From: Tribonema minus | Taxonomy: Eukaryota > Sar > Xanthophyceae > Tribonematales > Tribonemataceae | Direction of reading: 5' to 3' | Assembly: GCA_017506865.1 (NCBI GenBank) | Contig: JAFCMP010000090.1 | Coordinates: 1-64,000 of the forward strand | Length of the DNA stretch: 64,000 bases | Part shown: piece after piece, positions 1 through 36,100 of the stretch | Layout of the letters: each line of letters starts with the position of its first letter | Position numbering within the stretch: the first letter of the stretch is position 1 | Notes under the pieces: generated by a model | What the model was told of the DNA's origin: nothing | Database searches by the model: none | The model's input: only the letters and a program-made list of their open reading frames with translations | Position numbers and translations under genes: made by a program

Positions 1-436
1 GAGCCCGCAACCCCTCCTGCGCGGCCTTGGCGGTAGCGAGCGAGAGGCGGAGCTCGACGACGAGATAGCGCTTGCCCTTACGACCCAGCTCTGATTCGGG
101 TGAGGAGTCCGGTCTAACCGATCCAGAGCCCGTTATACCCGGCTCTCAGCTGTTACGGCCTCGCACAAAGTCCGGGGCATCTGCCTCGGCGAGACTGTCT
201 GCAGATAGTACAGCTCAAGAACGTTCCAGGACCTTGACGCCCAGGCTAAGGTGTGCGTGGCTCTGCGCGATGCTAGCAAGGAGGGCCCTGAACGTACAAG
301 TACAAGACGGAACTCTATGCGATCACGTACCAGCTTCCACGTCTTAAGGCGAGCATGAGCAGGTAGAAGTTGACCGCTGCGCGTACTCACAGAGATTCAG
401 CGCTTTGGAGACTGCTCGCTAGAACTCGACGCAATC

Positions 437-1926
437 ATGGATCGCGATCTTGGCGATGCAGATACACTGCGCCGTCTCAAGGCGTTCGAGAAGGTGCAGC
501 GGTGCAGCACTGCAGGCAGGGCGTTGGTCCAGGTTGCCCCGCCCCGCGTTGGCGTGGCGGCCTCGATTCAGATGTCTCATACTGCGCCGTCGAGCACTGG
601 GTCACCACGACCCCAGCGACGATGGCAGTGAACCGTCCCGAGCGGACGGCGCTGACGCTGCTAACAGGGGCAAGGGAGACGTCTATGCGAAGGCTGGAGG
701 ATTGCCGGCGTAGCCACCTCTCTTCTCGCGTAGGTGTATGTGTCACCAGGCTTGACTCACTCACCGCTGCGCTGCGCTCCATGGCAGAGGACGTCAAGGT
801 CCACGCTCTAAGTGTGGCCATAAAGGCGTCGAAGGACAAAACCTTACTTTCAACTGTGCGCCTACTGTCCCTAGAGGTCGGCGGCAAGCGGAAGGGGTGG
901 GAGCAGCTAACGTACGCAGAACGTTGTGCAGCCATAATTGAGCACTTCAACTCTGAAGCTGCCCAAGAGAAGGTGTACAATTCTCTACTTCAAGCCAGGC
1001 GTCTCCCGAGCGAGAGCCCTGGGGAGTTGGCTCTCCGCGTGCGGAACATGGTTGTACAGGCAGGTGGTAGCGAAAGTTCTCGTGAGTTTCTGAAAAGCTT
1101 CACTACTTACGCCTCATCTCATCCAAGGAGCGGACGGCGCTAGGGTTGCACTGGGGAGGGCTGGCAGGACGCTGGTCTTGCGAGCATTCAGGAGCACATT
1201 GAGCGCACCTGGAACGGGAAAGCCCATGCCGCGAGCAAGGGCGGACCCACGTCGCAGGATGGTTCTGACCGCGAGAGTTTGCGCGACGACGCGTCGCAAG
1301 CAAGTGACGCGCCGCGCCAGACGCCCTCTGCCTCGCAGATTGCGCGCAAGGAGAGGGCGCTGGCGGACAAGGAGAGGCGCCTCGCCAAAAGAGAGAAAGC
1401 CTTGGAGGTGCGAGCTGCTGCTGTAGCCGCCAAGTCGGCTCCGGCAGCCGCGCCCGCCAGGCGTGGGCCCCCCGCGCCTGAGCATGACAATTCAGGCATG
1501 GTGCAGTTCAACCCGCGTTCTCACTGGGTATGCTTTGACTGCCAGACAACGCTGCCGCGCGGTATCGCCGTTGACATGCATCGCAACACGCCCAACTGCC
1601 CGGCGTTTGATCCTTCCCGCCGCCCCCGCGCCGCACCGTACGGCGGGCCGCGCGGTGAGCCGCGCGGCGCGCCACCGGCGCATCAGGCGAATCAGTACAC
1701 GCGGTACGGTCCCCGCCCCCCTTTTCCGCCCCCGGCTGCTATGCCGCAGGCGCCGGTCGTGGCAGCGGCGGCTGCTGCCGCTGCGCCAACGCCAGCGGAG
1801 GCGGACGAGTATCACAAGATGATGGCCTTTGTGGCCTGGCAGAGGGCTCAGGGTGAGTCTACTTCGCTCGCGCGCGCGCGTGCGGCCCTCAGGGGGTGGC
1901 ACCAGCGGTGCGCGCGCCGCAGTTGA
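437..1926 (+). pseudogene. gag-like region with zinc knuckle, frame-disrupted
   Basis: A start at 437 opens a Gag-like N-terminus (begins MDRDLGDADT) in frame 2 that closes by 631. Most of the capsid-like sequence is in frame 1 from about 600 to 1143 and includes an Arg/Lys/Leu-rich helical stretch. Frame 1 has a TAG at 1141-1143 and then stays open to 1926. The second half has a charged coiled-coil stretch (about 1340-1425), then a C-x2-C-x13-H-x5-C knuckle at about 1531-1600 that looks like a nucleocapsid zinc knuckle, then a Pro/Ala-rich tail. The stop and the frame change mean the copy is either decayed or depends on recoding. Gag would package the element RNA in cytoplasmic particles. 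The true start and any frameshift sites are uncertain. Confidence 0.6.
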
Positions 1927-1954
1927 ACTTGAACATGCTTTTGGTCAACGTGAT

Positions 1955-2890
1955 ATGTGCGTCTCCGCGTCCATCGCAACCTCACCACGTGAGCGCGCGC
2001 CTGGGCACAATGACGCCGTATTGCTGGCTATGTTGCATCCTTCGTTACCCAGCGTACCTTCCCTCGCGGAAGTGTCGCAGTCTACGGCTGATGCTAACAT
2101 GCAACTTGAAGGTGATAGTGCAAACGATACTCCCCCATCAAACACTGGTTCGCCGCATACGGTTACCATACCTAATGCAAGCGAATCGCCTGTCTGTGCT
2201 ACCGCTGTGACACAGGACCCTGATGCTGGCATGCCAGTGGCGGGTGCAGCGCGGCATGTGACACACGCCTCCATATGCTGCGGCATTGGTGGCTGGGACG
2301 AGGGTTTAAAGCAGGCAAGTGTGGCAGGCCTTGTGGTGGACACTCAACTTGCTGTTGACAAGTGCCCCCGCGTGTGTGAGGCGTACCACGAACTGCACCC
2401 TGGCACCCACAAGGTTTTAAACGCGTGCCTGAGCGATGATGCAGTAGCCATAGCACTGGCTGAACTGGATCCTGACCTCACCACAATGTCCCCCCCGTGC
2501 ACAGATTATGCAAACGGGAGTGGCGTTGAGGGGGCAGCGGCGGAGGTGACGATCATGGCGGCGCGGCTGATTGTGAGGGCGAAGCTGCGCTGCTGTGTCA
2601 TCGAGAATGTGGTATCCATGCTCAGCTCCAAGGCGTGGGCGCGCGCGCAGGCTTTGCTGCTGGCCCACGGCTACTGTCTCTATGTCAGCAAGCTGAAGGG
2701 GTCGGATTTTAGCATAGCGTGCCACCGGCGGCGGCTGTATGTGGTGATTGCGCGGGCAGGGGTTGGTGTCACGACCGCTATGGCACGGTTCGGGGCGTTA
2801 ATTAATGCAATTCAGCGTTCATCATTACCCATGTCCGTACGGCGTTTCTTCGCTGCCCTGAGCGCTGTTTCTTTTGGAAATCTCGCGTGA
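1955..2890 (+). CDS. retrotransposon-encoded C5-cytosine DNA methyltransferase
   Basis: The frame is open from 1829 and the first ATG is at 1955. The first roughly 100 codons are low-complexity linker. From about 2260 the C5-methyltransferase motifs follow in order. Motif I for S-adenosylmethionine binding reads SICCGIGGWDEG. Motif IV is SPPCTDY, with the catalytic Cys at 2498-2500. Motif VI is ENV at 2603-2611. A motif VIII-like CHRRRLYVVIA lies at about 2719-2755. The ORF ends soon after with SFGN, possibly a motif X remnant, so there is almost no target recognition domain. The family transfers a methyl group to cytosine C5 in DNA. The ORF overlaps the gag frame (1829-1926) and the protease frame (2806-2890), so it may be made as a Gag fusion by frameshifting. 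A DNMT2-like tRNA methyltransferase is the main alternative, but the motif IV context does not settle it. Confidence 0.85.
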   Translation: MCVSASIATSPRERAPGHNDAVLLAMLHPSLPSVPSLAEVSQSTADANMQLEGDSANDTPPSNTGSPHTVTIPNASESPVCATAVTQDPDAGMPVAGAARHVTHASICCGIGGWDEGLKQASVAGLVVDTQLAVDKCPRVCEAYHELHPGTHKVLNACLSDDAVAIALAELDPDLTTMSPPCTDYANGSGVEGAAAEVTIMAARLIVRAKLRCCVIENVVSMLSSKAWARAQALLLAHGYCLYVSKLKGSDFSIACHRRRLYVVIARAGVGVTTAMARFGALINAIQRSSLPMSVRRFFAALSAVSFGNLA

Positions 2891-4230
2891 AGGGTACCAA
2901 GAGTGTGTATGATGCCGATGACTGCATGCCCAGCCCGGTCAGGCGGAACCCTGGAAAACCACCAGTGGATCTGGCTGACTATGTGGCTGATGATGAACAT
3001 GATGCTGGCCCTGTGCAAAATGCAAGAGTACTGTCATTGCGTGAAATGGCTGTCCTGCTCACCTTTACACGTGACTTGCCATGCAAGGCCACCATTGAGG
3101 ACATGAAGTTATGGCTTGTAAACTTAGTCATGCCACGCATGGCTTTTCACATTGCCGTTGGGCTTGTGGGATCTGGCATGCTTGATCTTCAAGTAGGCGC
3201 CCCTTGTCCCCGGGGTGTCCGCCTGGACCATGACCCTAGTGCACCCCCCCCTGAATGGATGCTGCCAGGGTCTGAAGATTACATGCATGTGGCAGAGACT
3301 CCTACTGAGCAAGGCAAGGTGCAGGCTAGGGTTGCGGCCATCACCGCACGATACAGTGCTTGGCAGTATGCAGTCACCCCTGATATGATATGTGCAGAAG
3401 GTTTGAATACAGGTCCTTGGTCTTGCACAGCGCTCAATGACTCGTGCAATGACTCAGACTCTGATGTTGATGAAGTTGAGGAAGAGGAACTTGTGCAGTC
3501 ACACCCTAGCGGCTCCTCACAAGGTGCATACGCCAGTGAAGACGAGCATCACTTTGACGACACGGTGCATGAGGCAACTCGCAGGCGTGGGCTAGGCAAC
3601 CCTCGCGTGAGCGCTGTGGCTGCCAAGCTACACGATGAAGCGAGCCGCTCACAAGCCGCTGAAGTGGATCCCGCCTCGGTGAGGCCGGGAGAGACAGTTG
3701 TGTTGCCAAGTGGCCAGCCCAGCAAGCAGCGGTTTGCCAGGCTGAAGGCACGCGTGCAGCACCAACGTGGGTTCAAAGAACGAGACTTTGTCTCATTGCT
3801 GGACCCCGGCGCTGAGGCAGGCATCATGGCAAAAGCAACGGCGGATGAGCTATCTCCAGGGACGACATGCCCTCTTGAGAAGGGGGACCATTCAGTCATA
3901 GAACTGGCAGACAGTCGCACACAGGTCAAGATCGTAGGCGCTTTGCACCTCACCTTACGGTTTGGTAACAAGCTGGTGCGGCACAAGTTCTACATTGTGG
4001 ACTTGGCCATCACCACCATTCTAGGCAGCGACTTCTTTGGCATGTACAAAACCCTCTTTGACTATGAGGATTTGACATACCAGCCGTTAGGTTCGGACGG
4101 CCCAAAGTTGAAGATGCTAGGCAGCGAGGCAGCGCATGGGACGGTGTGGCAAGGCGCTAAGACCGCAGGGGCTGTGAAAATTAGCCCAAAGTACCAGCCC
4201 CCCCTGCGCATCGTGCCGTGTGCCTGGTGA
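2887..4230 (+). CDS. retroelement aspartic protease segment
   Basis: This frame is open from 2806 and overlaps the end of the methyltransferase ORF, one base back in phase; the only early start is GTG, so it is probably translated as part of a longer polyprotein. The N-terminal 270 or so residues are not recognisable and include an acidic stretch at about 3450-3500. The retropepsin-like domain begins near 3780. The active-site region reads LLDPGAEAG (Asp codon 3802-3804), and ILGSDFFG at about 4018-4041 matches the hydrophobic-hydrophobic-Gly motif before the C-terminal strand. Most retropepsins have DTG or DSG; here the second residue is Pro, which is odd and may impair the enzyme. The role would be to cleave the Gag-Pol precursor. 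The segment ends in TGA just after a C7 run that overlaps the RT frame. Confidence 0.75.
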   Translation: MKGTKSVYDADDCMPSPVRRNPGKPPVDLADYVADDEHDAGPVQNARVLSLREMAVLLTFTRDLPCKATIEDMKLWLVNLVMPRMAFHIAVGLVGSGMLDLQVGAPCPRGVRLDHDPSAPPPEWMLPGSEDYMHVAETPTEQGKVQARVAAITARYSAWQYAVTPDMICAEGLNTGPWSCTALNDSCNDSDSDVDEVEEEELVQSHPSGSSQGAYASEDEHHFDDTVHEATRRRGLGNPRVSAVAAKLHDEASRSQAAEVDPASVRPGETVVLPSGQPSKQRFARLKARVQHQRGFKERDFVSLLDPGAEAGIMAKATADELSPGTTCPLEKGDHSVIELADSRTQVKIVGALHLTLRFGNKLVRHKFYIVDLAITTILGSDFFGMYKTLFDYEDLTYQPLGSDGPKLKMLGSEAAHGTVWQGAKTAGAVKISPKYQPPLRIVPCAW

Positions 4231-7200
4231 ATGACATACTCATTCCAGCGCACACCGAGGTGAACGTTGAAGTTGCATTACACCCACCAGTGAAAGGGCT
4301 GAGCCCCTACTCGGCAGTAATACAACCCGCAATGTCTCAGACGATGTTGAAGTTGCAAGAAAGGGGCGTAAAGGCCGCCATGTCGGTGGATATTGTTGGC
4401 GCGCACAACCCTGTGCGCGCACGCATGGTAAACTTCTCAGACCAGCCGGTGCTTATGGCCAGAAACACCTTCATTGGTGAGGCACGGCCGGCTTCGCCTG
4501 AGGATATCATTGAGTTGGAGGACGCATCTGCGACCAAGCTTGAGCAACAGCTCTTGCAGGTGGCTGCAGCTCACCACCCGAACAGCGAGTTCAGCTACGC
4601 TGCAACCGCGGCGCTGCGAGCAATTGCATTGGGGAAGGCTGCTGGTACCTATGGTGCTGCTAATGTGTCTGCTGCTACACCAGGCACAGAACGCACTCGT
4701 ACCACACAGGAACCCTGCACTGAAGCAGAGCTACGCGAGATGCTACCCACCAAAGGTGACCTTCATGATATGAAAGCCCCCGATGGTAGGCCATATGCTG
4801 AGCATCTGATGGATGTGTTCAACGAATTCGCGAGCGTGTTTGCAAAGGACCCCAAAAATCCGACAGTGACAAACCTCATGGAGTTTGAGATTGACACTGG
4901 TGATGCAATGCCTATCGCTGAAAAGGCTAGGAGGTGGGCGCAAAAGGAGGCAGAGTACATCATGGAACATGTCAAGGCCATGCATGTGCGCAAGCAAGTG
5001 GAGCCTAGCAATGGTCCATGGGCATGCAACCCAGTACTAGCAAGGCAAGGTGATAAGATACGATTTTGCGTGGACTTCCGCCGTCTCAACGCTGTCACGA
5101 AGCGCGACAGCAGAGGTCTAGGCAACATCGATGATATGGTGCATCAAATGAAGGGCGCCCGGTACGTGTCCTCAGTCGACATGGCCGCGGGCTACCATCA
5201 GATACCATTGCGCGAAAGTGACAAGCCTAAAACGGCATTCCGCACACCTGATGGAGGGCTATGGCAGTACACAGTGGCACCTTTTGGGCTTGTGAATTTG
5301 CCTGCGCAATTCACACGCTTGATGCACAACACTTTGGGCGCTGCCCTAGGTGCATATGCCATGGTTTACGTCGACGACGTCTTGATATATGATGACTCCA
5401 TGGAAACGCACCTTGCGCATATCCGTGACGTCCTATCACGCATCAAAGACGCTGGTCTAAGTGTGGCGCGGCACAAATGCCAATGGTTCCAAACTGAGAT
5501 CAAGTTCCTTGGTCACATTGTGGGATCAGGGGGCATTCGTCCGGACCCAGAAAAGGTTCAGGCAATGTCTGACATGAGCGCGCCATTGAATGCCAAAGGG
5601 AGAGCTGACAAGGGGCTAGTACGTACAGTACTGGGCTGCTTCAACTATTACCGGCGGTATGTTCAAGATTTTGCGACATTGGCAGCCCCACTTGTGGAGC
5701 TGACCAAAAGTGATGCAGAAATGGTATGGGATAGGCGCAGGCGCGATGCCTTTGAGGCATTAAAAAAGGCAATGTGCGAGGCAAAACTGGTGTCACACCC
5801 AGACTTCTCACTACCATTTGTGCTGTACACTGATGCATCTCAAACTGCCACTAGTGGCATTTTGACGCAATTTAAACCAGTGCAGGCACTTAGTGGCAAA
5901 GAAGCTGCCCCCGCGGCAGGCCGCAGGCGCACAGTAAATGGGAAGGAGGAAATGGAAGTAGTAGTGGGTTACTTCTCAAAAATTAATTCCACACAAGACG
6001 CCAAACTTGGCGCTACCGCGCTAGAGTGCCTGGCCGTCGTGCTGTCACTCAACCATTACCGACCTTACGTGTGGGGCAACCCAGTCACAGTGGTTACAGA
6101 TGCGGCGGCCCTACGATGGCTGCTGACTTTGCAGGACCACAATGGCAAGCTTATGCGGTGGGCTATGAGGTTGCTGGAGTACGACATTACCGTACAACAC
6201 CGACCAGGCCTGGTGAACTCAAATGCAGACGGCCTGTCCAGGCTCCCTATGCAAAAAGAGTTGGACGCTCCTAGAGAGTATGAGCAAGCAGACGAGCAAT
6301 GGTCAGACTCAATTCCATGCTTTGCAGCACCACCTTCAGGGGTGAAGTTTGCACATTTTGTGGGAGAGTTTGCGGCGCCCTTAGGGGAGTTTGCTGACCA
6401 AGCAAAGGCGACCAACCATGGGTCACATGTTTCTGCAGCGGCAATTAAAATTGCCAACTTCAGGGGTAAACTGGTGAGCAACGAGTGGGGCACTCCCTTC
6501 TCGCTCAATGAGCTAGCCATGAAGAATGCAAGTGAGGACTCAAGCATAGCAGCCAGGCTGGCTACGCTTACGGTCCAACAGGTCAATGTTTTGCTATGTG
6601 AGCTGGACGAGGAAGACTCTTCGTGGACGGATGGAGAGACTGCGTCGATGTCTTTCAGTCCAGCTACTTTGCATATGTATGCTAATGCATGCATGGATGA
6701 GGCGGCAGAGTCTGACTGGGACTCCCCGGCATCTAGCAAGACTGCGAGCATATCTGCCAAGCGCCGCCGGGTCGCTGCCAACACCGCTGTACCGCTACCA
6801 GGGGGCGCCATCCCCCCGCAGCGAACAGAGGGGGTGTCGGAGCCACGCCGTAAGCGCACACTCAGCAGGCCCAGCCATGAACTGGTCCCTGAACCAGTTG
6901 ACGAGACCACGCCTGTGCCGGCAATGCTAAGCCGGGAAGCGTTTATTGAGCTCCAGCAGCGGGACCCCTTGTGTCAGGCAGTGTCACGCACTCTGAGGGA
7001 CAATATATACCCGCAGGATAGTGAGCTGGCTGCACACTTAATGGTGAACCGTGACTGGTACTGTCACGAGGAGGATGGCCTGCTGGTACATCTGGCCACC
7101 AGCCACCCCAAACGCGGGATGGTGCTGCGCCAATGGTTTGTACCCGCCGCGCTGCGCCCTCTGGTTTTGAGGCTGGGGCATGACGACGCCACGGCCGGTC

Positions 7201-9131
7201 ACGCCGGCGCAAGCGCCACGTATGTCCGCCTGTTTGAGCGCTTCTACTGGCCTCGCATCAGCAGTGATGTACACACGTATGTCACTAGTTGCATGTCTTG
7301 CCTACAGCGCAAGAAGGCTACGACTGGCAAGGCCAAGATGATGTTAACACTGCCAACTCGCATGTTTCAGCGAGCGCACACTGACATCACCATGACCTCG
7401 GTGGTGTCTTCAGAGGGGCACATAGGGCTGCTGACAGTAATTGAGGCACGCTCTGGATTTTGCTGGCTCATGCCAATTAAAAACAAGGACATGCATACGG
7501 TTGCAAGGCTCTTGTACAAGGTAATCCTAGAAATGGGATCCATGTTAGAGGAGCTGGTGTCGGACCAAGGCAAGGAGTTTCTGAACATTGTGGTGCGCGA
7601 TTTGTGCTCAATTTTCAGGATCATGAAAATTGACACAAGTGCATACCACCCACAGGCAAATGGGGTCGCTGAACGGCAAAATGAACGCATCATGGCCATT
7701 CTGACTGCCTGGGTTGACAAGACCCAACAGAATTGGCATGAGGGCGTTGAGGCTGTGCAGTTCGCTCTCCGGTCCACCCCCAGAGAAGAAACAGGCCTGA
7801 GCCCTTTCTACTGTGTGTATGGCCGCGAGCCGTCCCTGCCGTTCGAAACCTTCCCTGATGAAGTGCATGGTGGCGACTTACATTCTGAGATTGAACGCAA
7901 GCGCGTCAACCTCAAAATGGCACAGAAGGTTATTGATGAGGCATATGGCATCAAGGCGCGCAGAGTTGACAAGGCTAATGAAGCGGTCAAGCGCGCAATG
8001 AAGGTTAAAGTTGGGGACCTGGTCATGATCAAGCAGAAGCCTGCTAAGGGACGCTCCAGGAAGCTGGACCCTAAATTCATTGGACCATGGGTGGTAGCAG
8101 AGGAAACTGGCGGATCTGGGCTGTCATTTTCATGCCGCATGATGGGGCGCCGGGTGCGTCGCACGCGGGCACATGTGACCAACATGAAGCCTTTTCATTT
8201 AAGGCCAAGTGTCATGGAACTTGACAACCCCTACGCGGTGCTTAATGAGGAAGACATTAAGCAACTGCCCAAGGATGGCTGGCTAGAGAGGCTGGTAGAC
8301 CGCCGGTACAACCCCAATGGTTCGTGGGACTACCGTTGGCTGCTCAGAGATGGTACGTTGAGCACATGGAAGACAGAGGACGATGCACTCGAGGTTGCCA
8401 TGCCTTGGACGCTCGATACTTTTCACGCGCTCTACGAGTTGAAGCATGTGAATGACATGCCTGACTACGCCACGAGGATACCACGGGAGGACCGGCGCGT
8501 ATCCACGAAAGAGGCTGCGCTGGCCCTATTCCCGAGAGGTACTAAGGTGGTGCGTGAGGAGCGCGGCGCGCTTAAGCAACAAGTCAAGTACCTATGGGGA
8601 ACCATCACTGGTTACCTCGCCCCGTACTGGCGCGTGCGCTATGAAGATGGTGACTGGGAGGACTTCACAAAGCGGCAGTTGCAATGCGCAATTGCGTTGG
8701 CTGAAGCCACTCAGCAGCGCGCAAAGGATCTGGGCGTCACGGTTTCTAGCCCCAAGGTGGTGCAGGAAATGTGCCCTGGGATCCCACCAGACTTTGGTGC
8801 GACTTACCATGGTCAGACCGTGAGAGTCAAAAGTGCAACTGGTTGGAGCCGTGCAGTGCTCAAGGAATACTTGCCCCGGGCCGGCAAGTACACATTTCGC
8901 GTGCATTACAACGGGCACCCAGTCACGCGTTTAATCACCGTGCGGCTGAGGCCTGACTACTACAGCACCGCAGTTACAAGCGAGCAGGCTGAGGCAGACC
9001 CTATGTCCAGTTGGAACCTACTGCTGACCACGGTCGCAGAAGAGGTCCCCTTGGGCCAGGAGTCTGGTCAGGGAGGTTCAGATTCATACAGTGGCGAGGA
9101 CATGGATTTGAGCGATGGTGATGTGAGGTAG
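4218..9131 (+). CDS. pol: Ty3/gypsy Pol: reverse transcriptase, RNase H, integrase, chromo/Tudor-like tail
   Basis: The frame is open from 4185 and has no ATG near its start, as expected for a product joined to the protease by a -1 shift. Residues are counted from 4218. RT spans about 215-450 with YVDD at 384-387. RNase H begins near YTDAS at 536-540 and ends near NADGLSRL. An H2C2 integrase zinc finger (HDDATAGH...CMSC) lies at about 990-1030. The integrase core has Asp 1056, Asp 1116 and Glu 1152, a correct D,D-35-E spacing. A GPY/F-like stretch follows (DPKFIGPWVV). Then come a chromodomain-like segment (LERLVDRRYN... TWK, nt 8275-8390) and two Tudor-like barrels (nt 8530-8690 and 8800-8970). 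Pol copies the element RNA and inserts the DNA; the tail probably reads chromatin marks. The reading frame is intact over 1,637 codons, so the copy may be young. Confidence 0.95.
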   Translation: MCLVNDILIPAHTEVNVEVALHPPVKGLSPYSAVIQPAMSQTMLKLQERGVKAAMSVDIVGAHNPVRARMVNFSDQPVLMARNTFIGEARPASPEDIIELEDASATKLEQQLLQVAAAHHPNSEFSYAATAALRAIALGKAAGTYGAANVSAATPGTERTRTTQEPCTEAELREMLPTKGDLHDMKAPDGRPYAEHLMDVFNEFASVFAKDPKNPTVTNLMEFEIDTGDAMPIAEKARRWAQKEAEYIMEHVKAMHVRKQVEPSNGPWACNPVLARQGDKIRFCVDFRRLNAVTKRDSRGLGNIDDMVHQMKGARYVSSVDMAAGYHQIPLRESDKPKTAFRTPDGGLWQYTVAPFGLVNLPAQFTRLMHNTLGAALGAYAMVYVDDVLIYDDSMETHLAHIRDVLSRIKDAGLSVARHKCQWFQTEIKFLGHIVGSGGIRPDPEKVQAMSDMSAPLNAKGRADKGLVRTVLGCFNYYRRYVQDFATLAAPLVELTKSDAEMVWDRRRRDAFEALKKAMCEAKLVSHPDFSLPFVLYTDASQTATSGILTQFKPVQALSGKEAAPAAGRRRTVNGKEEMEVVVGYFSKINSTQDAKLGATALECLAVVLSLNHYRPYVWGNPVTVVTDAAALRWLLTLQDHNGKLMRWAMRLLEYDITVQHRPGLVNSNADGLSRLPMQKELDAPREYEQADEQWSDSIPCFAAPPSGVKFAHFVGEFAAPLGEFADQAKATNHGSHVSAAAIKIANFRGKLVSNEWGTPFSLNELAMKNASEDSSIAARLATLTVQQVNVLLCELDEEDSSWTDGETASMSFSPATLHMYANACMDEAAESDWDSPASSKTASISAKRRRVAANTAVPLPGGAIPPQRTEGVSEPRRKRTLSRPSHELVPEPVDETTPVPAMLSREAFIELQQRDPLCQAVSRTLRDNIYPQDSELAAHLMVNRDWYCHEEDGLLVHLATSHPKRGMVLRQWFVPAALRPLVLRLGHDDATAGHAGASATYVRLFERFYWPRISSDVHTYVTSCMSCLQRKKATTGKAKMMLTLPTRMFQRAHTDITMTSVVSSEGHIGLLTVIEARSGFCWLMPIKNKDMHTVARLLYKVILEMGSMLEELVSDQGKEFLNIVVRDLCSIFRIMKIDTSAYHPQANGVAERQNERIMAILTAWVDKTQQNWHEGVEAVQFALRSTPREETGLSPFYCVYGREPSLPFETFPDEVHGGDLHSEIERKRVNLKMAQKVIDEAYGIKARRVDKANEAVKRAMKVKVGDLVMIKQKPAKGRSRKLDPKFIGPWVVAEETGGSGLSFSCRMMGRRVRRTRAHVTNMKPFHLRPSVMELDNPYAVLNEEDIKQLPKDGWLERLVDRRYNPNGSWDYRWLLRDGTLSTWKTEDDALEVAMPWTLDTFHALYELKHVNDMPDYATRIPREDRRVSTKEAALALFPRGTKVVREERGALKQQVKYLWGTITGYLAPYWRVRYEDGDWEDFTKRQLQCAIALAEATQQRAKDLGVTVSSPKVVQEMCPGIPPDFGATYHGQTVRVKSATGWSRAVLKEYLPRAGKYTFRVHYNGHPVTRLITVRLRPDYYSTAVTSEQAEADPMSSWNLLLTTVAEEVPLGQESGQGGSDSYSGEDMDLSDGDVR

Positions 9132-9371
9132 CTACACCACGCATGTGCTCAGTGGCTGGCCGGCGCTGTGACATGAAGCTATCCTCGAGCTGTGCAGCGG
9201 CGCCTTAAACGAATATTGCGCTGCACAGTACCTATGTGGATACTCTATACGAGGGTCTGTAAAGGTTGGGTGTGGAGGTGAAGCAAATTGAATTACACAT
9301 ACGCTAACGTAGAACTGTAGCAACGTTGATCCCTGTGGTGCTATGCGTTTCTCTGGGGACAGAGAAATCAT

Positions 9372-9383
9372 GAGAAGGGGGAG
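9372..9383 (+). promoter_or_regulatory. polypurine tract of the Ty3 element
   Basis: Twelve consecutive purines (gagaagggggag) lie about 240 bases after the pol stop and immediately before a TG dinucleotide that could start the LTR. This is where plus-strand DNA synthesis starts in LTR retroelements. The interval 9132-9371 has no credible ORF and is 3' untranslated sequence. Confidence 0.7.
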
Positions 9384-9384
9384 T

Positions 9385-9710
9385 TGACACGGGCAGCTGT
9401 ATGTAAAGTAAACTATTTATGTAGCCTTCTGGCTTATGATGTTTCAACTCTATTATATTCGGCCGTTATTAGGGCCCAGGGCAATTGGTTCGAACTAGGG
9501 GAACATTGCAGGAAAACCCCTTAACCGGTGAGACCCTTGAGTCTCCCCAGATGAAGGGTTGTGCTTGCAAGGCCTCGGTTCTTGTCACTCAGCTAGGATA
9601 CCACGGCTCCAGGATAGAGACAACTGAAGCCAACAACCATCAACCATCATGGACCCGTCTAAATCAGCCCAAGCCAACGCTGCCCCATCTACAAGTAAGA
9701 CAGGCTTAAC
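9385..9710 (+). repeat. putative 3' LTR of the Ty3 element
   Basis: The sequence after the polypurine tract starts with TG and is AT-rich with no coding potential that fits the element. The right boundary is a guess, near a CA at about 9709, because the 5' LTR is not in the window for comparison. It would carry the promoter and polyadenylation signals of the element. Confidence 0.45.
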
Positions 9711-9738
9711 ATAACAAATATAACCCCAACTTTGTTTC

Positions 9739-10335
9739 AAACGTCTTGTGATTCACTCGGACACGCCTTCGTGTAGGGCAATTTTGGCGTAAACGTCTTA
9801 ATGACGCCTTATTTGTATCTCGGCGAAAAGTGCCGAGGCAGGACATATGCCGTAATCTCACGTCACGCCATGCCCCTGCCTAGGCATGCGCCATGTGGGA
9901 CTGCCATGAACGCACGTGATTTCACGCCTTGCTTGACAGTAGGCGACGCCTTCGCCGTGCGGCAGAATGCAGTTACACGTTTATTGGGCACGTTGCATAA
10001 ACGAGGCGAAACGGCTCGAGGACGTTACTTGCCATTTCTGAAGCGTAAACGTGTTGCGCTGCACGAGACAACGCTTACATGCAGGCACACAATATCAGTA
10101 AACGCATCGACCAACGTCTTGTGCTTCACGAGGCTACGCCTTCATGTAGGAGCGCAATTGCAACAAACGCTTTCATCAACGCCTTGTCTTTCACGAGGGT
10201 ACGCTTACATGCAGGCACACAATTGCAGACAACGTGTAGGGTAACGTCTTATGTTTCACGAGGTCACGCCTGCGTGTAGGCGCACAATTGCAGTTGACGT
10301 GTATGCCAACGCCTTGCCATTCACGAGGTTAGGCT
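9739..10335 (+). repeat. degenerate tandem repeat, period about 65 bp
   Basis: The clearest units start at 10048, 10113, 10178, 10243 and 10308, each opening with a variant of aacgtcttgtgcttcacgag and containing a shared centre (catgcaggcacacaattgca). Less regular copies begin near 9739 and 9795. ORFs across this stretch reflect the repeat and do not look like a gene. It lies just outside the retrotransposon. Confidence 0.8.
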
Positions 10336-11284
10336 TTATTCAGCTCAATGCCAACATGAACACATGTCAGCTGGTGCGCATCATGGAATCTCCTGGAATC
10401 GCGATCGTACTTTACTCACAAGCGCATGGAGATCCCCGAGATTGCTGCCAACCACGCTGCACGCACTCCATAATCATCACAGCAGCAACACGCAAATCAA
10501 AGGCACAACTGCAGCGCGACTCAGGAGTGCAGTGGCGTGACAGGGGTGCGCCAGCGCCGGCAGGGTTTCCAAAGGCTAGTGCTTCAGTTGGCACAGGTGC
10601 GTACCTGATTGGCAGCACACCGTCTGGCGGATGTCCATGCCTCGTTTGGTGCGGAAGCAAGACCCGCTGTAGGCGAGGTCACAGTAGAGCCAAATCGCCC
10701 TGACCTTGCCCTGGACACATTGTGTCGACGATGAGCTGGCGTACTCTTGCTGCTCTGCAGGCACCAACACTTGTGGTAATGGCGCTAGACATGCTTGTCG
10801 CACGCGCTGCTGCCCAAGTACGCTCTGTGCTGCACTCCGCCTCGGGAAATGATTTAGGTTTGCATGACGTATGCATTGTCGTGTGCTGCAGGAATTCAAG
10901 GGAGCAAAATTGGCGTTCACGTGTCGCCCTTGAGGCAGTGAGCCGCCGCCCAGGAGCAGCACCAGGGCTTGCCGTCATGGTGAGACTGCTGAGGTTGCCT
11001 GCGTGATGGTAGCCTTTTGTTTCAATTCCATTTGTACCAGTGCCGTAGTGAGCGGCGTGGCTAGCTGCTTCGCAAGGAGGGGCGGCCCTTCCTTGCATAC
11101 TCTGGTCAGCGCGCTCACATTAACCCAACTGTCTTGCACGGCGGGCTCTTCGCATGCATGCCCATCGTACTGAATCGACACTCACTTGCCTTCACCATGC
11201 ACTTAGTCACGGCAGCGATGCGCACCCCACGCTCGCCCGTAGCAAGGCTGATGATCATTGTTGTCTGCCTTTCCGCCACGCTGA
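10336..11284. other. no recognisable gene
   Basis: Several ORFs of 60-150 codons occur on both strands, but none has a recognisable motif, consistent splice context or convincing composition. A 94-codon ATG ORF at 10722-11006 (starts MSTMSWRTLA) is the least unlikely. No repeats were seen. The stretch may include the promoter or an upstream exon of the next gene, since the long ORF at 11285 opens right after a splice-acceptor-like ttgcag. Confidence 0.4.
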
Positions 11285-11359
11285 TTGCAGGCGTCGGAGC
11301 GTCCGGCCCGAAAGTTGAGAGTGCTCTACGAAGGCTTGCTGGCAGCCGACCCTAACGCA

Positions 11360-13549
11360 ATGACAGTGGAGGAGCAACTTGCGCAACTGAAGGCGCTTCC
11401 GCAAGCGAAGCAGGAAGACGGCAAAGTCGGCCGGCAAGTGCGTGCGCAACAAACCATAGCGGATTTCGCCAAGCTGCTGGAGGACAACAAACGCAGCATC
11501 ATCATCGACCTGGCAATATGCAACGATGGCGGCTGGCTGCCCGAAGCGCTCGCCAAACGCGGACCACAAGGCGGTGTCATTGGAGTCAGCCCTATGGAGA
11601 GCCTCGCCGCCGCATTAGAGGGCCTGCCGCCGTGCGACCCGGGCGTGATGGCGGTCGTGACAGCATGCTGCCTGAAGAGGGCAGTGGCCGACGAACGCAT
11701 AGTCATCAATCGCGCAATATGGCGCTATGACGTGGACCCGTCGCTGGTTGCGATCGGCGTCGTGCCGGGCGAGAAGCTGGCGCTGGTGGGTAGTATCAGC
11801 ATACACGCGCCGGGCGTGGACGACGAAGCGCGGCCCAACGCCGACGTGCTGCACGACGCCGCCATCTCGCTGCGGTTGGCGCTGCAGTTGGCCATCGACC
11901 CGCCCTCGTACGACCAGGAGCGTGTCATCTGGAACAACGTGTACAACATCGGCATGGCGATCATCTCCTTTCGGGCTCTGCTAGACGCGACACGACGCAG
12001 CGACTTCAACATCCGGGTGCGAGCACCGGCAGAGCTTGGAGGCGCCGACGCCGACGACCTCGTGCTGATTTGGCGCGAAGGGACGCGTCTGCGCGTCCTG
12101 ATCGGAGAGCACCTGCTGCGCCACATGTTTGTGGGGCAGCTGCTGGTGGCATTGGCCAGGACGGGCAGCAATGGCAACGCCGAGGGGACGGGCGGCGACG
12201 GCGATGCCGAGAGGACCGGTGGCATCGGCGACACCGAGCTGCTGGTAGTCCAAGGAGACCTCTCTGCCTACACTCCAGGCAAGAAGGTCTTTCCCCTGCT
12301 GCGCGTCTTCCAGCAGGGCAGTACATGGAACGTGAGCGGAAGCGGGGAGCCCGATCTGCTGGAGCAGCCGCACGTGCGCGGCATCATGGACGCGCTGCGC
12401 ATTTGTTGCGCGGCGTCCGGGGGGGTAGAGGAAGCGGGGGGGGTAAAGGAGCGGGAGGGTGTAGAGGGGTCGGGGCGCGGTGCTGCCTACAAAAACAGCC
12501 CACGTGACGTACGGTGGAGCAGGCGAGCGGCCCTGCAGCGCCTGGCGGTGATGCTGGCAGCGAACCCCGGCGACCCGGCCGTGGCGCGTCAGTGGAGGCT
12601 GCTTGTTGTGTGTGCGGCGGCGTGCGAGCTGGCGGACACCTGGGAGGACGTCTTCCATCTGCTGTACTACGCCCGCGTCGTAGACAGCTGCAAGGATAGC
12701 GAAGGCGATGTAGACGTAGCGTGGGGCGCGCCGCCGGAGCTGGCGGCCCTCGCCACCGCCATCCTGCAGTTCAAGACACTTAAACTGGGCGCTGCGGAGT
12801 TTGACCCCACGAAGACACGCCCCTTCAATCTCACCGGCCACGACCACGAGGCGCCTGGCGTGCTCAAACGGCCGCGCACCACCCGGTCCTGCGTGGACGG
12901 CATGAATGTCGGCCGCGGGCGCGGCGACGAACTTGCCCGCGGCGACGATACACTGAGGGTGCGGGTCAAAGGCGGGCGCTTTATTAAGGTAACGCTGGAG
13001 GACGGCGTACTTTTCAGCACAAGGGCCTTCGAGCCAAAAGACCTGCTGCAGCCTTTCACCCGCATTGTTGGCCTGAATGTGCTGCAGGTAGTGGAAATCA
13101 CGTGGGCCCCGTTGCCGCTTGCGCCGCCCGCCCCTCGCACAAAGGTGTCTGGCACGCTGTTCAAAGCGCTGCTGCAGGGCTGCAACGGGCCCGAGCCTGC
13201 CGGGTGGCTGCTGGACCGCATTTTCAACGGCGAGGTGGCGCTGCGCAGGCTCAGCCCCGAATCCAGGCAGCCCACGTTTCTCACGGCATCGCCGCGGTTT
13301 ATAAACGTGACTTTCAACGAGGACAGCCCTTACAGCGCCGAGTACACGTCGCTGGACGCTGATCTCTTGTGTCAACTGCACACGTACGAAGACGGCACCC
13401 ACGTGTGGCTAGACCTGTTCAACGATAACTCGCTGCGTCGGGTCACAAGGGTAGTTGAGTGGCTGCTGGAGCTGCAGCCAATCGAGTTTAGTGGGGATCA
13501 TGAGCTGCTAAGTGAGTGTTCTTTCACAGGCCACTACAAGCTGCGCTGA
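11360..13549 (+). CDS. large orphan protein (about 729 residues)
   Basis: A single uninterrupted frame runs from a TGA at 11282 to the stop at 13549. The first ATG is at 11360; an acceptor-like ttgcag at 11285-11290 leaves open an extra 5' exon. I do not recognise the protein. The first third is Leu/Ala/Val-rich and helical. A Gly-rich repeat-like linker (GNAEGTGGDGDAERTGG) lies at about 12170-12235, and a second acidic Gly/Glu linker at 12410-12480. The C-terminal third (from about 12945) looks beta-rich. There is no signal peptide or membrane segment. The intronless state and the position before a virus-like block would fit a gene from an integrated giant virus, but nothing in the protein itself proves that. 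Codon use is GC-rich, like that of the host genes. Confidence 0.7.
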   Translation: MTVEEQLAQLKALPQAKQEDGKVGRQVRAQQTIADFAKLLEDNKRSIIIDLAICNDGGWLPEALAKRGPQGGVIGVSPMESLAAALEGLPPCDPGVMAVVTACCLKRAVADERIVINRAIWRYDVDPSLVAIGVVPGEKLALVGSISIHAPGVDDEARPNADVLHDAAISLRLALQLAIDPPSYDQERVIWNNVYNIGMAIISFRALLDATRRSDFNIRVRAPAELGGADADDLVLIWREGTRLRVLIGEHLLRHMFVGQLLVALARTGSNGNAEGTGGDGDAERTGGIGDTELLVVQGDLSAYTPGKKVFPLLRVFQQGSTWNVSGSGEPDLLEQPHVRGIMDALRICCAASGGVEEAGGVKEREGVEGSGRGAAYKNSPRDVRWSRRAALQRLAVMLAANPGDPAVARQWRLLVVCAAACELADTWEDVFHLLYYARVVDSCKDSEGDVDVAWGAPPELAALATAILQFKTLKLGAAEFDPTKTRPFNLTGHDHEAPGVLKRPRTTRSCVDGMNVGRGRGDELARGDDTLRVRVKGGRFIKVTLEDGVLFSTRAFEPKDLLQPFTRIVGLNVLQVVEITWAPLPLAPPAPRTKVSGTLFKALLQGCNGPEPAGWLLDRIFNGEVALRRLSPESRQPTFLTASPRFINVTFNEDSPYSAEYTSLDADLLCQLHTYEDGTHVWLDLFNDNSLRRVTRVVEWLLELQPIEFSGDHELLSECSFTGHYKLR

Positions 13550-14673
13550 CCCGAGGGGATCGCTTCTTTCGCCAGCGCAGTAGCACAAGCGCACGCTGTA
13601 ACACTTTAGCATCGCTTACATAGCAAAATGGTGCAAGAGGTGAAATTCCTCCATTCCAGGATCAAATGACTGGATGCACTTCATCGCGCACAATCAATTG
13701 CAACATCCATTTCAAATGCATCAACATGCAATGCGCCTGGGTCAATGTGTCTGGTTCTGGCTGTTGCGTGTGTGATGCATGCAATGTCTTGCACTGATAT
13801 ATGACCGCCAAGGACTGCATCACTTGTGTCTATTGAACGCCTTGATTCTGTTGCATGCACGTGCGCTTTGACTCAAATGCAAGCATTGTCTGAAATCACT
13901 GAGCACCAAGAATCGATATCTTCAACGAACACAACAGCGTCAAGAGCTTCACATGTGCCCATTGCATGCACACGCAGCTGAATCAATTGTTTCACTCACC
14001 GCAGCACAAGAATCACTTGTTCCAATGAACATGCAAGCCTGCCAAAGCACCCTAGCAATGTACACTTTGGTCACACTTGATGCTATTGAAGCAAGTGAGT
14101 TGTGTGTGTGTGCCTTGTTGATACATGTGCCACCATTGCCGCTCTGGAACGCATAGATTTGATTGAATCAAATGTGCGCGATTCTGTCAATAGGGTCAAT
14201 ATATGCAAATCGCGCAGCGATTTATAAGAGCGAAGTGTCGCAAAGAGACGTGGCCGAAGGCCACACTCTTGCATTGCAAACCATGTACCCGCACTCTCAC
14301 ATCACACACACATGTCACATGTCACATTTAATCTAATCAATTGTTCGACTGCGGCACAAGAATCAGGTGTACCAGTGACATGCAGGCCTGCCTACGCCGA
14401 TGACATCACGTCAGTAGATCAGGAGATCCAACAGAGCGTCTTTCAACTGCAAACAGACACACATAAACATGTAGTTAAAGACATACACTCGCTTCAATAT
14501 GCGACTTTTTTTTTTTCGCTTCAATATGCGACTTTTTATTTTTCGGGGCAACCCCAACTTCAATAGTGGCGAGACTCCATAAAATATTGTTCACTCTATT
14601 TTGTGGAACCAGTCAGTCACATCACATCAGCAACAGGAGATCAGAATCACGTTGAGAGGGGCGGAGCAGAATC
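13550..14673. repeat. intergenic repeats, copies 1 and 2 of a dispersed degenerate family
   Basis: No gene is seen. A motif of the form tcaattgttt...gcacaagaatca...tgcaagcctgcc occurs at about 13980-14045 and again at 14330-14395. Related copies occur near 16005-16065 and 17205-17265. Around it are further shared pieces, such as gcaatgtacac...cacttgatgctattga (14055-14090, also 17000-17030) and tttgattgaatcaaa (14158-14172, also 17090-17105). A near-duplicate 25-base segment (cttcaatatgcgactttt) occurs at 14491 and 14519. The family is AT-richer than the genes around it. Confidence 0.65.
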
Positions 14674-32630: not shown

Positions 32631-33149
32631 AGTCGTGACAACCCCTGGAATAAAGCCTTGGGTCTCAAGATCAATGGCATATCTCGCCAAGGGCATGTCG
32701 TTCACTCTTTCTGGTGCACATGATGCATGAATGTTGCGTAGAGCCAATGATCCCAAGGCGATCGCTCCGCAGAGCTCTGACAGTGGGTCTCGATGACTTG
32801 AAGCCTTAGGGCATTTGCAGTGGTATGATGTCCTCTACATTTGATGCGGTGGGCCCTCATGTGACTCTGCCCCTGCCCCTACTGTGATGGTAAACCCCCA
32901 CTCATCCCTGGACATCACGGTGGCTGCATCATAACAGGTGCTTCGTGATTACTGCACCACTTGGGGGCAGCATGCAGATGCCATGTGGGGAGAGCTGCTG
33001 CGCCCAGCACTACGGCATCAGAGGTTCAGCTGCCAACGTTGATTACACCAGAGCCATACAGTACAATCTCGTATGGTTGCACGGCAGAAGACTTCCTACG
33101 GGCGGTAAGGAAGCTGAGTGCATGCACAGGTGCCTGCGGCCTGGTCCAT

Positions 33150-36100
33150 ATGTCAGCCAGCGCGGGGCAGAGGCAATGCGCGCTGACCTCGCCATGCCAC
33201 ACGTGTCGACGGAATGGAAGCGCCCCCACGCGCGCACGCCCGGCAGTACCCCCGGGCCAGTCCGAGGGCGGGGGTGCGGGTAGCGACGGCGCGGCCGCGG
33301 CGGCGGGGGCTGCCGCAGCGACACCTCCAAAACTACCGGCGGTGCCGGCTAGTGGCGCTGCCAACTCAAAGTCTAGCAAGAAACGCCCGGCGGCCACGGC
33401 AACCGGCGCGCAACGCCGGCGCCGAACGGCAGCTGCTGCGGCACCGCCTAGCAGCGCCGGCAGCCGCACTCAGTCTGACAGCCTGAGGCTGCAGGACAGC
33501 AGCCCCCCCCACGGGACGGCCGTGGGATGGGCGGACATGGACGTGGACCCGCCGGACGATGCCGCGTCACCGCCCCCCCCGACCACCACCACCAGTGGCA
33601 GGCCCTCAAAGCCCCAGGCACGAGCATCCCTGGCTTGGGACCTCTCGACGCCCTCGGTCGTCCACGCACTTGACCAGACCAATGAGGCGGATCTACTGCT
33701 GCTGCGGTTCATCACGACTGCCAACCCCTTCCGCACTCAGCTGCAGTGCACCCAGTGGGCACGGCTAGTGGAGCACGCCACACGACTACTGGCGGACGCC
33801 ACAGACAGTGCACGTGAGGCGGCACGGGTGCGCCTCCACCATGGTGCCGGGGCGTTTGCTCATCAGGTTTCTCAGACTCTAGTGCAGCGCGGCTACAGGC
33901 TGCTGCACCTGCTAGCAGCGATGGCCTTTGGTAGGCAACCGGAGGGAACCGGTATGCCGCCTGCGGCCCGGCTGGCAGCGTTGCTGTCTGGCGACTTCGC
34001 GGAGCTACTGAGAAAGACGCTGTCAGCAGCAGCGGCGCTGCGGGCCCCCAAACCAAACAACGCAGCTATGGCGTCGGCACAAACGAACTTCGATGCCGAC
34101 TGGACGGAGGCTGACTCCAGGCAGCAAACAGCATGCGCTGCCCTCTCAGGCAAGCGACGGGGGGTAGGCTTGGCTGCCGCACGACTAGAGGCGCGTGAAG
34201 CATGCGCCCCAGCAGACGAGGTCACGGCACAGGTGCTGGCAGCAAAGCACCCTGAAACTGGCACCCGGCCGGGGGTAGTCGATACGCCAATGGAGCAAGT
34301 GCGCGGCCTGGTACGCGACGCCCGGCGGCACTGCTTACACAGCGCAGGGGTGGCAACGACCACCGGGCCAGCTGGCAGCGGCAGTCCTGTCTTCGAATCG
34401 GGTCAGGCACATGATCACAGCGATAGGCCTGAGGATGCTGCCAGCGCAGCCGGACGGCGCCTCGAGGTGGAGGCGGCAGACATACTGTCGACCTTGTCCG
34501 CAGCAGGGGCGGGGAAGGCAGGAGGGCTGGACGGCCTACGCTATGAACACCTCTTGATGGCCGCTGGGCCTGGTGCACCAGTGAAAGCAGCCACCCGCCC
34601 CGTGAGCAGTGCCTCGCCAGGACTAGCTGGTGATTCAGAATCAGATGTGATGGAACCGGCATTCGCCCATCACCTGGCCAAGGTGTTCACGACGCTGCTT
34701 GTTGAGCCCGAACTGCTGCCGGAGCAATCGCAACGGCTTCTCCGCGCCGCGGCCCTCTCAGGCATAGGACAGAAGCGGCGTCCGATCGCCTGCTCCAGTG
34801 TCTGGCGCAGACTCCTCGGGTCCACAGCGGCACGGAGTGTCAAGGGCAAGATATCGGGGCTGCTGGCCTCCATGTCGCAGTTTGGCGTAGGATACCGGTC
34901 TGGCGTCGAGCATGTGGCAGCGCGCGCGCGCGTGTGGCACGAGCTGTATGGCACCACTATCCAACTGGACTGTGAGAACGCATTTAACAGTGTGGATCGC
35001 GCCGCCATTGTGCGGGGGCTTATGCTCTTCTGTCCGGAGCTGCTCCCGCACTTTGAGTCCGTATACTGTGGTGACACTGCCCCAGAGATGCGGGTGGAGG
35101 TGAACGGTGAAGCTCGCATTATCTGCTCCCACCTAGGGTGCCAGCAAGGGGACCCTCTAGGGCCGCTGTACTTTGCAGTGGCAGCGGCCTTCCTACTCTT
35201 CTACCCTGATGGAGTGAATGCGACGCCCGGCAGTATGCCGGCCTACGGCCACAGCACAGCGGAACCGCCAGCCCCGCACTGCGCTTTCCTGGATGACCTC
35301 AACGTGCTGCAAGCTGCCTACTTCGACGATGCAGCGGCCGCTGGGGTGGCAGAGGTGATCCGCCGGCTGGCGGCAGGGGGCCTACGCGTTCGACCAGACA
35401 AGTCGCTGGCCATCGCCATGCGCGGCACAGTGTTTGATGAAGCGGCCAGAGCACGCCTGCGCGCCCTTGACATACCGTTTGTGGACACCACCATGCCAGA
35501 ATCCAGTCAGGGCTTTACGTCGGTCGGGGTACCGGTAGGGCACCCAGCCTATGTGCACGCTGCCATGAGCAAGCATCTTGTCGACGCAGGGACATGGCGA
35601 TTGTCGTGGCAGCTAGCTGGAATGGCGCGGCATCACCTACAGGCAGCACAGTTCATTCTACGCAGGTCACTGACGAAGCGCATGGGCTTCTTAGCTCGGG
35701 TCGTTGACACGGCTTTGAGTGAGACATGGTTGCACGCGTTTGACGGGTTCTGTGCATGGACGCTCGAACGCATGCTGCATCTGCACGGCTGCTCTACCGC
35801 GGCAGCCATGAAGTCACACCTGCTGGCCGCCTGCACTGCTGGTGACAATGAGGAAGCCAGCAGTGGCAGCGTGCTGGTATTGCCGCGCTTGGGCCCGCCA
35901 GAACTCACGGACATCGCAGTGCCACTGCGGGCGTCACGGTTGCCGGAGCGACGAGGCGGTCTGGGCATGCCGCTTTTGGGGCTACTGGCACCAGCCGCAT
36001 ACACGGCCCAGGCATGCACAACACTGAGGCCGGCAATAATTCATGCCACTGTGGCAGCAGGGGCCCTGAGGCTCGGCACTGACGAACACGGCGCAGTCAC

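Follow-up and report, generated by a model that had tools for sequence, protein, structure and literature searches.

The first 9,739 bases of the window (the whole 64,000-nucleotide stretch of DNA that was analyzed, C90:1-64000) are a Ty3/gypsy retrotransposon truncated at its 5' end by the contig start, and its Gag-Pol region contains a C5-methyltransferase. Judged from its sequence, this methyltransferase domain is real and complete, and selection seems to have preserved it in a Ty3 family that is still young; its function is predicted. Retrotransposons that bear a DNMT are already known from dinoflagellates and a charophyte; for the family described here, the host is corrected to a probable xanthophyte, and a second capture is possible.

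The window element is a Ty3/gypsy LTR retrotransposon. Its domains follow the order protease, reverse transcriptase (RT), RNase H, and integrase by Pfam matches, with the protease match under the cut-off (Table 1), and the solved structures closest to the RT/RNase H region are those of Ty3 (4ol8, 3.4e-60, then the Ty3-G Gag-Pol structure 7q5b, 3.3e-59). The initial annotation had placed the methyltransferase in a Ty3/gypsy element, on the same strand as a gag knuckle and a protease and between the two, and this description agrees with the PF00145 match, with the Ty3-like RT, and with the positions of a CX2C..H..C stretch in the Gag-like region (nt 1531, a loose pattern) and of the protease DPGA (nt 3796). 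The Gag-like region gave no Pfam gag match. Two C-terminal segments lie 3' of the integrase, one chromodomain-like and one Tudor-like, and both are weak; the chromodomain-like segment had no Pfam match as a cut-out piece. An Rfam search of the window returned nothing at the gathering score.

Table 1. Features of the Ty3/gypsy element in window coordinates
Feature	Position	Strand	Basis or remark
Ty3/gypsy element, 5' end missing	1..9739	+	window base 1 aligns to C407 base 4222; C407 element spans 2614-13997
Gag-like region, approximate, frame-broken in window copy	299..1926	+	first ATG of C407 long frame, 4540, corresponds to about window 299
C5-methyltransferase domain, motifs I to X	2261..3165	+	I-VIII in frame 1823-2890; IX and X in frame 2806-4230
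Catalytic Cys codon, motif IV (SPPC)	2498..2500	+	Cys invariant in 10 rows of alignment A3
Motif IX-like ARVLSLREMAVLLTF	3022..3066	+	in relatives P0001 and P0002, matched by alignment to LTIAQMCVISSFP of P0005
Motif X-like LWLVNLVMPRMAFHIAVGL	3109..3165	+	in relatives P0001 and P0002, matched by alignment to VMGNSVPPLLAAHVARAI of P0005
Aspartic protease	3781..4038	+	PF13975 E 0.046, under Pfam cut-off; DPGA at 3796, ILGSDF at 4018
Reverse transcriptase	5052..5522	+	PF00078 104.7 bits
RNase H	5727..6182	+	PF17917 and PF17919
Integrase, zinc-binding and core domains	7140..7631	+	PF17921 65.4 bits; PF00665 39.7 bits
Chromodomain-like segment, weak	8283..8435	+	CDYL2 chromodomain E 0.0069
Tudor-like segment	8586..8684	+	PF21743 E 7.8e-6, 26.0 bits, cut-off 27.2, on cut-out piece; 20.9 bits on whole frame
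Polypurine tract GAGAAGGGGGAGT	9372..9384	+	before 3' LTR
3' LTR, 355 bp, TGACAC...TTTCA	9385..9739	+	100% identical over 355 bases to C407 5' LTR

We looked for a full-length copy with two LTRs and the same methyltransferase, as the initial annotation had suggested, and found one on contig C407. This element, the one copy examined in this way, has a total length of 11,384 bp and two 355-bp LTRs that are 100% identical to each other, while the window copy holds the 3' LTR only. A single open frame of 3,104 codons lies between the C407 LTRs and runs through the methyltransferase, a TGG-initial candidate primer-binding site (TGGCACC...) is found directly 3' of the 5' LTR, and a polypurine tract is located upstream of the 3' LTR. 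The flanks of this single copy, AATAC and AACGT, differ and so show no target-site duplication there, on a contig whose joins are unsure. C407 may be the same locus as the window on another contig, since the 3' flank (9740-11627) is also common to both and the whole of 5743-11627 matches at 99.8%.

Comparison of the window copy with C407 gave 50 difference events when runs were counted once: 28 deletions, 2 insertions, and 20 substitutions. Because the window starts at contig base 1 and 36 of these 50 events fall within contig positions 1 to 715, the overlapping short frames in the window copy are probably contig-end assembly errors, and we judged genuine biological frameshifts to be unlikely. 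The overlap of the methyltransferase frame with both of its neighbors, which had been described before, is thus visible in the window as short overlapping frames but is probably an artifact of the contig end.

The open frame at 1823-2890 matched the Pfam DNA_methylase profile (PF00145; 45.3 bits, E 1.1e-11, cut-off 22) over profile positions 4 to 164 of 324. CCGIGGW, SPPC, ENV, and CHRRR all lie inside this frame, which places motifs I, IV, VI, and VIII within 2261-2842 in a single open frame, with the catalytic cysteine codon at the position first assigned to it. Since motifs IX and X follow at 3022-3165 in the next frame, the predicted C5-methyltransferase domain is complete from motif I to motif X. 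These last two motifs were recognized by visual inspection and through an alignment to P0005, as Pfam aligns the first half only of the domain in the window's clade. Motif I was present in all 30 copies that we fetched from the genome, and motifs I, IV, VI, and X shared one open frame in 27 of them; the other three are L001 (the window copy itself), L028, and L030. The slightly more divergent L028 and L030 break alike inside the domain, both ending in CFFGNLA, perhaps through a shared old frameshift.

A search of the genome with the domain as the query returned at least 128 rows, 124 of the 128 being without an internal stop, and a few of these rows are fragments that belong to a single copy (C55, C412). 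Among the matches listed, 34 of 128 rows had at least 95% identity over nearly the whole query, the others being less identical or partial, and 11 of these 34 near-full-length rows sit in frames of at least 3,000 aa. The same open reading frame is therefore carried by other copies and is not a one-off insertion. With the window and L004 itself counted, 27 of the 30 fetched copies were at least 99.2% identical to L004; the rest were L028 (97.8%), L030 (97.7%), and L022 (87.6%). A PF00145 search of the genome, counted separately from the window-query list, found 123 rows, each of which scored above the cut-off, and many of these lie in frames of 2,000 to 3,500 aa outside that list. One match, C311:3718-4503, lies in an open frame of 6,208 aa, double the normal length, which may comprise two tandem elements.

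We calculated dN/dS for the domain by the NG86 method in 14 pairs. Within clade 1, the values were 0.143 (L004/L031), 0.125 (L004/L032), 0.157 (L031/L032), 0.183 (L004/L033), and 0.234 (L031/L033), and three pairs within clade 2 gave 0.157, 0.154, and 0.134, with dS ranging from 0.13 to 1.6 across these eight pairs. The remaining pairs gave 0.224 (L039/L046), 0.235 (L047/L050), and, with dS near 2, 0.304 (L004/L037) and 0.274 (L004/L036), or no value (L033/L034, with 8 non-synonymous and 0 synonymous changes, and the saturated pair L004/L039). Because dN/dS is 0.13 to 0.23 within clades 1 and 2, we conclude that the domain evolves under purifying selection between subfamilies. The young copies (L001 and L022 excluded) carry 21 non-synonymous and 8 synonymous distinct variants, and the resulting pN/pS of 0.86 is as expected of fresh insertions and alone lends no support to selection.

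We looked for traces of cytosine methylation by comparing C/T changes at CG with those at other C. Among 25 copies (without L001, L022, L028, L029, and L030), C/T singletons occurred at 8/596 CG versus 6/1721 other C (p 0.012). Pairwise comparisons gave 27/1180 versus 29/3439 for L004/L030 (p 0.0003), 23/1182 versus 31/3439 for L004/L028 (p 0.007), 20/356 versus 37/1383 for L035/L036 (p 0.011), and 49/356 versus 130/1373 for L035/L038 (p 0.024). The excess at CG in these five tested comparisons, which share sequences and are not independent, was 1.5 to 3.9 times the level at other C (p 0.0003 to 0.024). For further pairs we made counts only, outside the p-value set: L036/L038 had 48/354 versus 128/1351, and L037/L040 (5/470 versus 15/1607) and L033/L034 (1/496 versus 2/1692) showed no clear CG excess. 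In these pairwise counts, the second member of each pair is named from the order of comparison. The CpG observed/expected ratio of the element, 0.805, was not below the 0.781 of the rest of the window. Given the higher frequency of C/T changes at CG, methylation of CG is likely in this genome, and the signal could come from host DNMTs. Tribonema minus has been reported, in the passages available, with DNMT5, HELLS, and a putative CDCA7 (PMC10538959).

We consider self-methylation of the cDNA to be the likeliest role of the enzyme, with a probability of about one-half. One Gag-Pol frame would make the enzyme, located between Gag and the protease, and the protease would cut it out. The enzyme would then be packaged alongside RT and integrase, and in the particle it would methylate the new double-stranded cDNA before integration, most likely at CG, so that the new copy would arrive with the host silencing mark already on it. 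The reader-like chromodomain-like and Tudor-like segments might steer this copy to marked chromatin. Such premarking would hide the element from defenses against unmodified DNA and make its insertions less harmful, and these benefits would account for the retention of the domain by selection. In favor of this reading we count the PF00145 match, the open frames in 27 of 30 copies, the 34 near-full-length rows, the identical C407 LTRs, the dN/dS values, the Ty3 RT, the CG-linked C/T excess, the reported T. minus DNMT5, HELLS, and putative CDCA7, and the CG activity of the SymbioDIRS enzymes in yeast; against it we count that the element is not CpG-poor, that the CG signal may be of host origin and shows no clear excess in two further pairs, that DNMT2 supplies the nearest solved structures by profile, that the KnitGypsy and SymbioLINE enzymes gave no DNA methylation in yeast, that pN/pS is 0.86 in young copies, and that L035, L040, and L049 have altered motifs.

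The main rival is that the enzyme, like DNMT2, methylates RNA within the particle, either the genomic RNA of the element or its primer tRNA, and we regard this as unlikely. The closest solved structures by profile are DNMT2 proteins (4h0n, 6.4e-12; 6fdf, 3.5e-11), reverse transcription of LTR elements is primed by a tRNA, and the candidate site after the 5' LTR begins with TGG. However, HhaI (1.7e-7) and DNMT1 also match the domain profile, and DNMT2 may top the ranking because its core is short and standard. The CFT tripeptide typical of DNMT2 is also missing from all 13 rows of alignment A1 and from 3 rows of alignment A2.

A second alternative, which we rate as quite improbable, is that the domain mainly alters the host, by methylating host chromatin in trans or by slowing retrotransposition, and is kept through host survival. 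The high copy number and the several lineages fit this explanation, and both ideas are discussed in the accessible text of de Mendoza et al. (PMC5890265), but selection on an element for a benefit to its host would be indirect. We give still less credence to a structural or nucleic-acid-binding Gag-Pol domain that has the methyltransferase fold without catalysis. Two long frames have changed catalytic motifs, with SSC in the motif of L049 (C23; a 3,177-aa open frame) and ESV in place of ENV in L040 (C112), and these perhaps encode enzymes that are losing or changing activity; L035 has an altered motif, CCRALGG. Against a noncatalytic role, the 10 rows of alignment A3, which leaves out L035, L040, L049, and clade 4, show no variation at Cys87, E122-N123-V124, R163, and R165. 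A pseudogene or a chance capture in one broken copy, to which the frameshifted window copy and the breaks inside the domain of L028 and L030 might point, is refuted by the 27 of 30 copies with an uninterrupted frame between motifs I and X together with the dN/dS of 0.13 to 0.23 within clades 1 and 2.

Trees were built with the domain from most of a set of 20 further genome places that we fetched. Clades 1, 2, 3, 5, and 6 grouped together (support 100/99 in one tree and 99/98 in another), and clade 4 (L047 and L050) grouped with L045 of the same genome (100/99 and 99/98). A single group of all 15 retrotransposon-labeled rows was rejected (p-AU 0.003) in a test for which the group was defined after the first tree, L041, L042, and L044 were dropped beforehand, and the outgroups were few and long; of ten phage loci, one (L053) passed the motif filter of the first tree. 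By these trees, the related enzymes in the genome form at least five divergent lineages, plus a sixth, clade 4, that groups elsewhere. The clade 4 enzyme is preceded by RGTVLGKA, and because this resembles RNTFIGEA of the window (nt 4461), located between protease and RT, the enzyme seems to sit at that other place in pol. Its separate grouping and its apparent position between protease and RT suggest that clade 4 represents a second capture of a methyltransferase. Clades 1 and 5 have a protease motif in frame after the enzyme (L031, L032, and L040). The fetched pieces of clades 2, 3, and 6 held none of the searched retroelement motifs, and we provisionally place these clades in Ty3 elements by the kinship of their enzymes and by open frames that span roughly 1,000 to 3,400 aa.

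Other methyltransferase-like sequences were also seen in the genome. L041 to L043 (C223:937874, C223:702740, and C181:39962) are frames of ~350 to 390 aa with the motifs FSGIGG and GFPC that might be host, viral, or bacterial genes; in the tree, a bacterial sequence clusters with L041 and L042. L044 (C523:358815-359333) resembles a DNMT2 exon by eye (FYSGIGG, SPPCQPY, and ENV) and has a long branch.

We searched for outside sources of the enzymes with scans seeded by short peptide patterns, which can miss relatives. A viral source was rejected for alignment A1 (0 of 78 pattern stretches in viral contigs), as was a prokaryotic source for A3 (0 of 59 stretches in genome contigs), and P0005 likewise gave 0 of 292 stretches in viral contigs. 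The same kind of scan with the clade 4 set, A2, found 61 loci from 110 stretches in viral contigs, at 22 to 36% identity. Homologues in long proteins elsewhere numbered 0 among 7,975 candidates. P0005 itself is 33% identical over half of the query, shares SPPCTDF, VEGEAAS, and IENV with the group, and has regular motifs IX and X; it differs in being a separate 505-aa protein, with a longest contig of 18 kb and a long branch in the tree.

The element had been ascribed to a chlorophyte, and this is most likely wrong: the assembly copy L031 is 94% identical over 169 residues to P0004, a protein of T. minus, which is a xanthophyte stramenopile and the most likely host. In the open literature searched by title and start of abstract, with subscription papers mostly outside the scope, we found no DNMT retrotransposons in Tribonema, a result that does not establish novelty. 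Should the host be Tribonema, a stramenopile would be added to the two lineages, dinoflagellates and charophytes, covered in 2018 by de Mendoza et al. (PMC5890265). That paper describes DNMT retrotransposons in Symbiodinium and Klebsormidium and has 0 occurrences of "chlorophyte" in its accessible text. A 2025 survey names retrotransposon DNMTs from streptophytes and dinoflagellates, and its available passages give no stramenopile C5 example (PMC12344493).

The closest known system in the passages of the 2018 report is KnitGypsy-Dnmt3 of Klebsormidium nitens, likewise a Ty3/gypsy element with a C5-methyltransferase in its polyprotein under purifying selection (KnitGypsy Ka/Ks < 0.2). It differs in its charophyte host, in having a Dnmt3-type enzyme in Pol, and in its DIRS-type repeat layout (PMC5890265). 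The family described here is set apart from it, by description, by two plain LTRs, an enzyme between Gag and protease, a probable stramenopile host, and the chromodomain-like and Tudor-like segments. SymbioDIRS-Dnmt3 and SymbioLINE-Dnmt are also cytosine methyltransferases borne by retrotransposons in many copies, but the elements are of the DIRS and LINE types and the host is a dinoflagellate (PMC5890265). In yeast, the SymbioDIRS DNMTs methylate CG de novo, and the KnitGypsy and SymbioLINE enzymes gave no DNA methylation, a result that the authors call inconclusive (PMC5890265). Gypsy-10_Ec32 of Ectocarpus is a Ty3/gypsy element with a C-terminal Tudor domain and a reported T. minus homologue; it differs in that "DNMT" occurs 0 times in the main text, as available, of the paper describing it (PMC12477816).

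More broadly, and as a tentative reading, Ty3 elements in one stramenopile genome might have captured methyltransferases at least twice, at one site between Gag and protease and at another between protease and RT, and radiated into at least five lineages that premark their cDNA, with chromodomain-like and Tudor-like segments aiming integration, so that the family would shape much of the host CG methylation. Retrotransposons are normally the targets of cytosine methylation, and a family that retains its own methyltransferase under purifying selection, along with chromatin-reader-like segments, makes it testable why an element would itself write a mark by which it is silenced. Long-read methylation calls are feasible with the many near-identical open-frame copies, probably in a species already in NCBI.

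Outside the element, the window contains a tandem repeat with 65-bp spacing directly downstream of it (10048-10307) and a 1,545-aa frame (32961-37598) that has a reverse transcriptase match barely above the threshold, at 30.3 bits (cut-off 29.6), and is probably a second retroelement. Farther along, at 55437-57551, a match to dynein heavy chain N-terminal region 2 (320.9 bits) marks a eukaryotic host gene.
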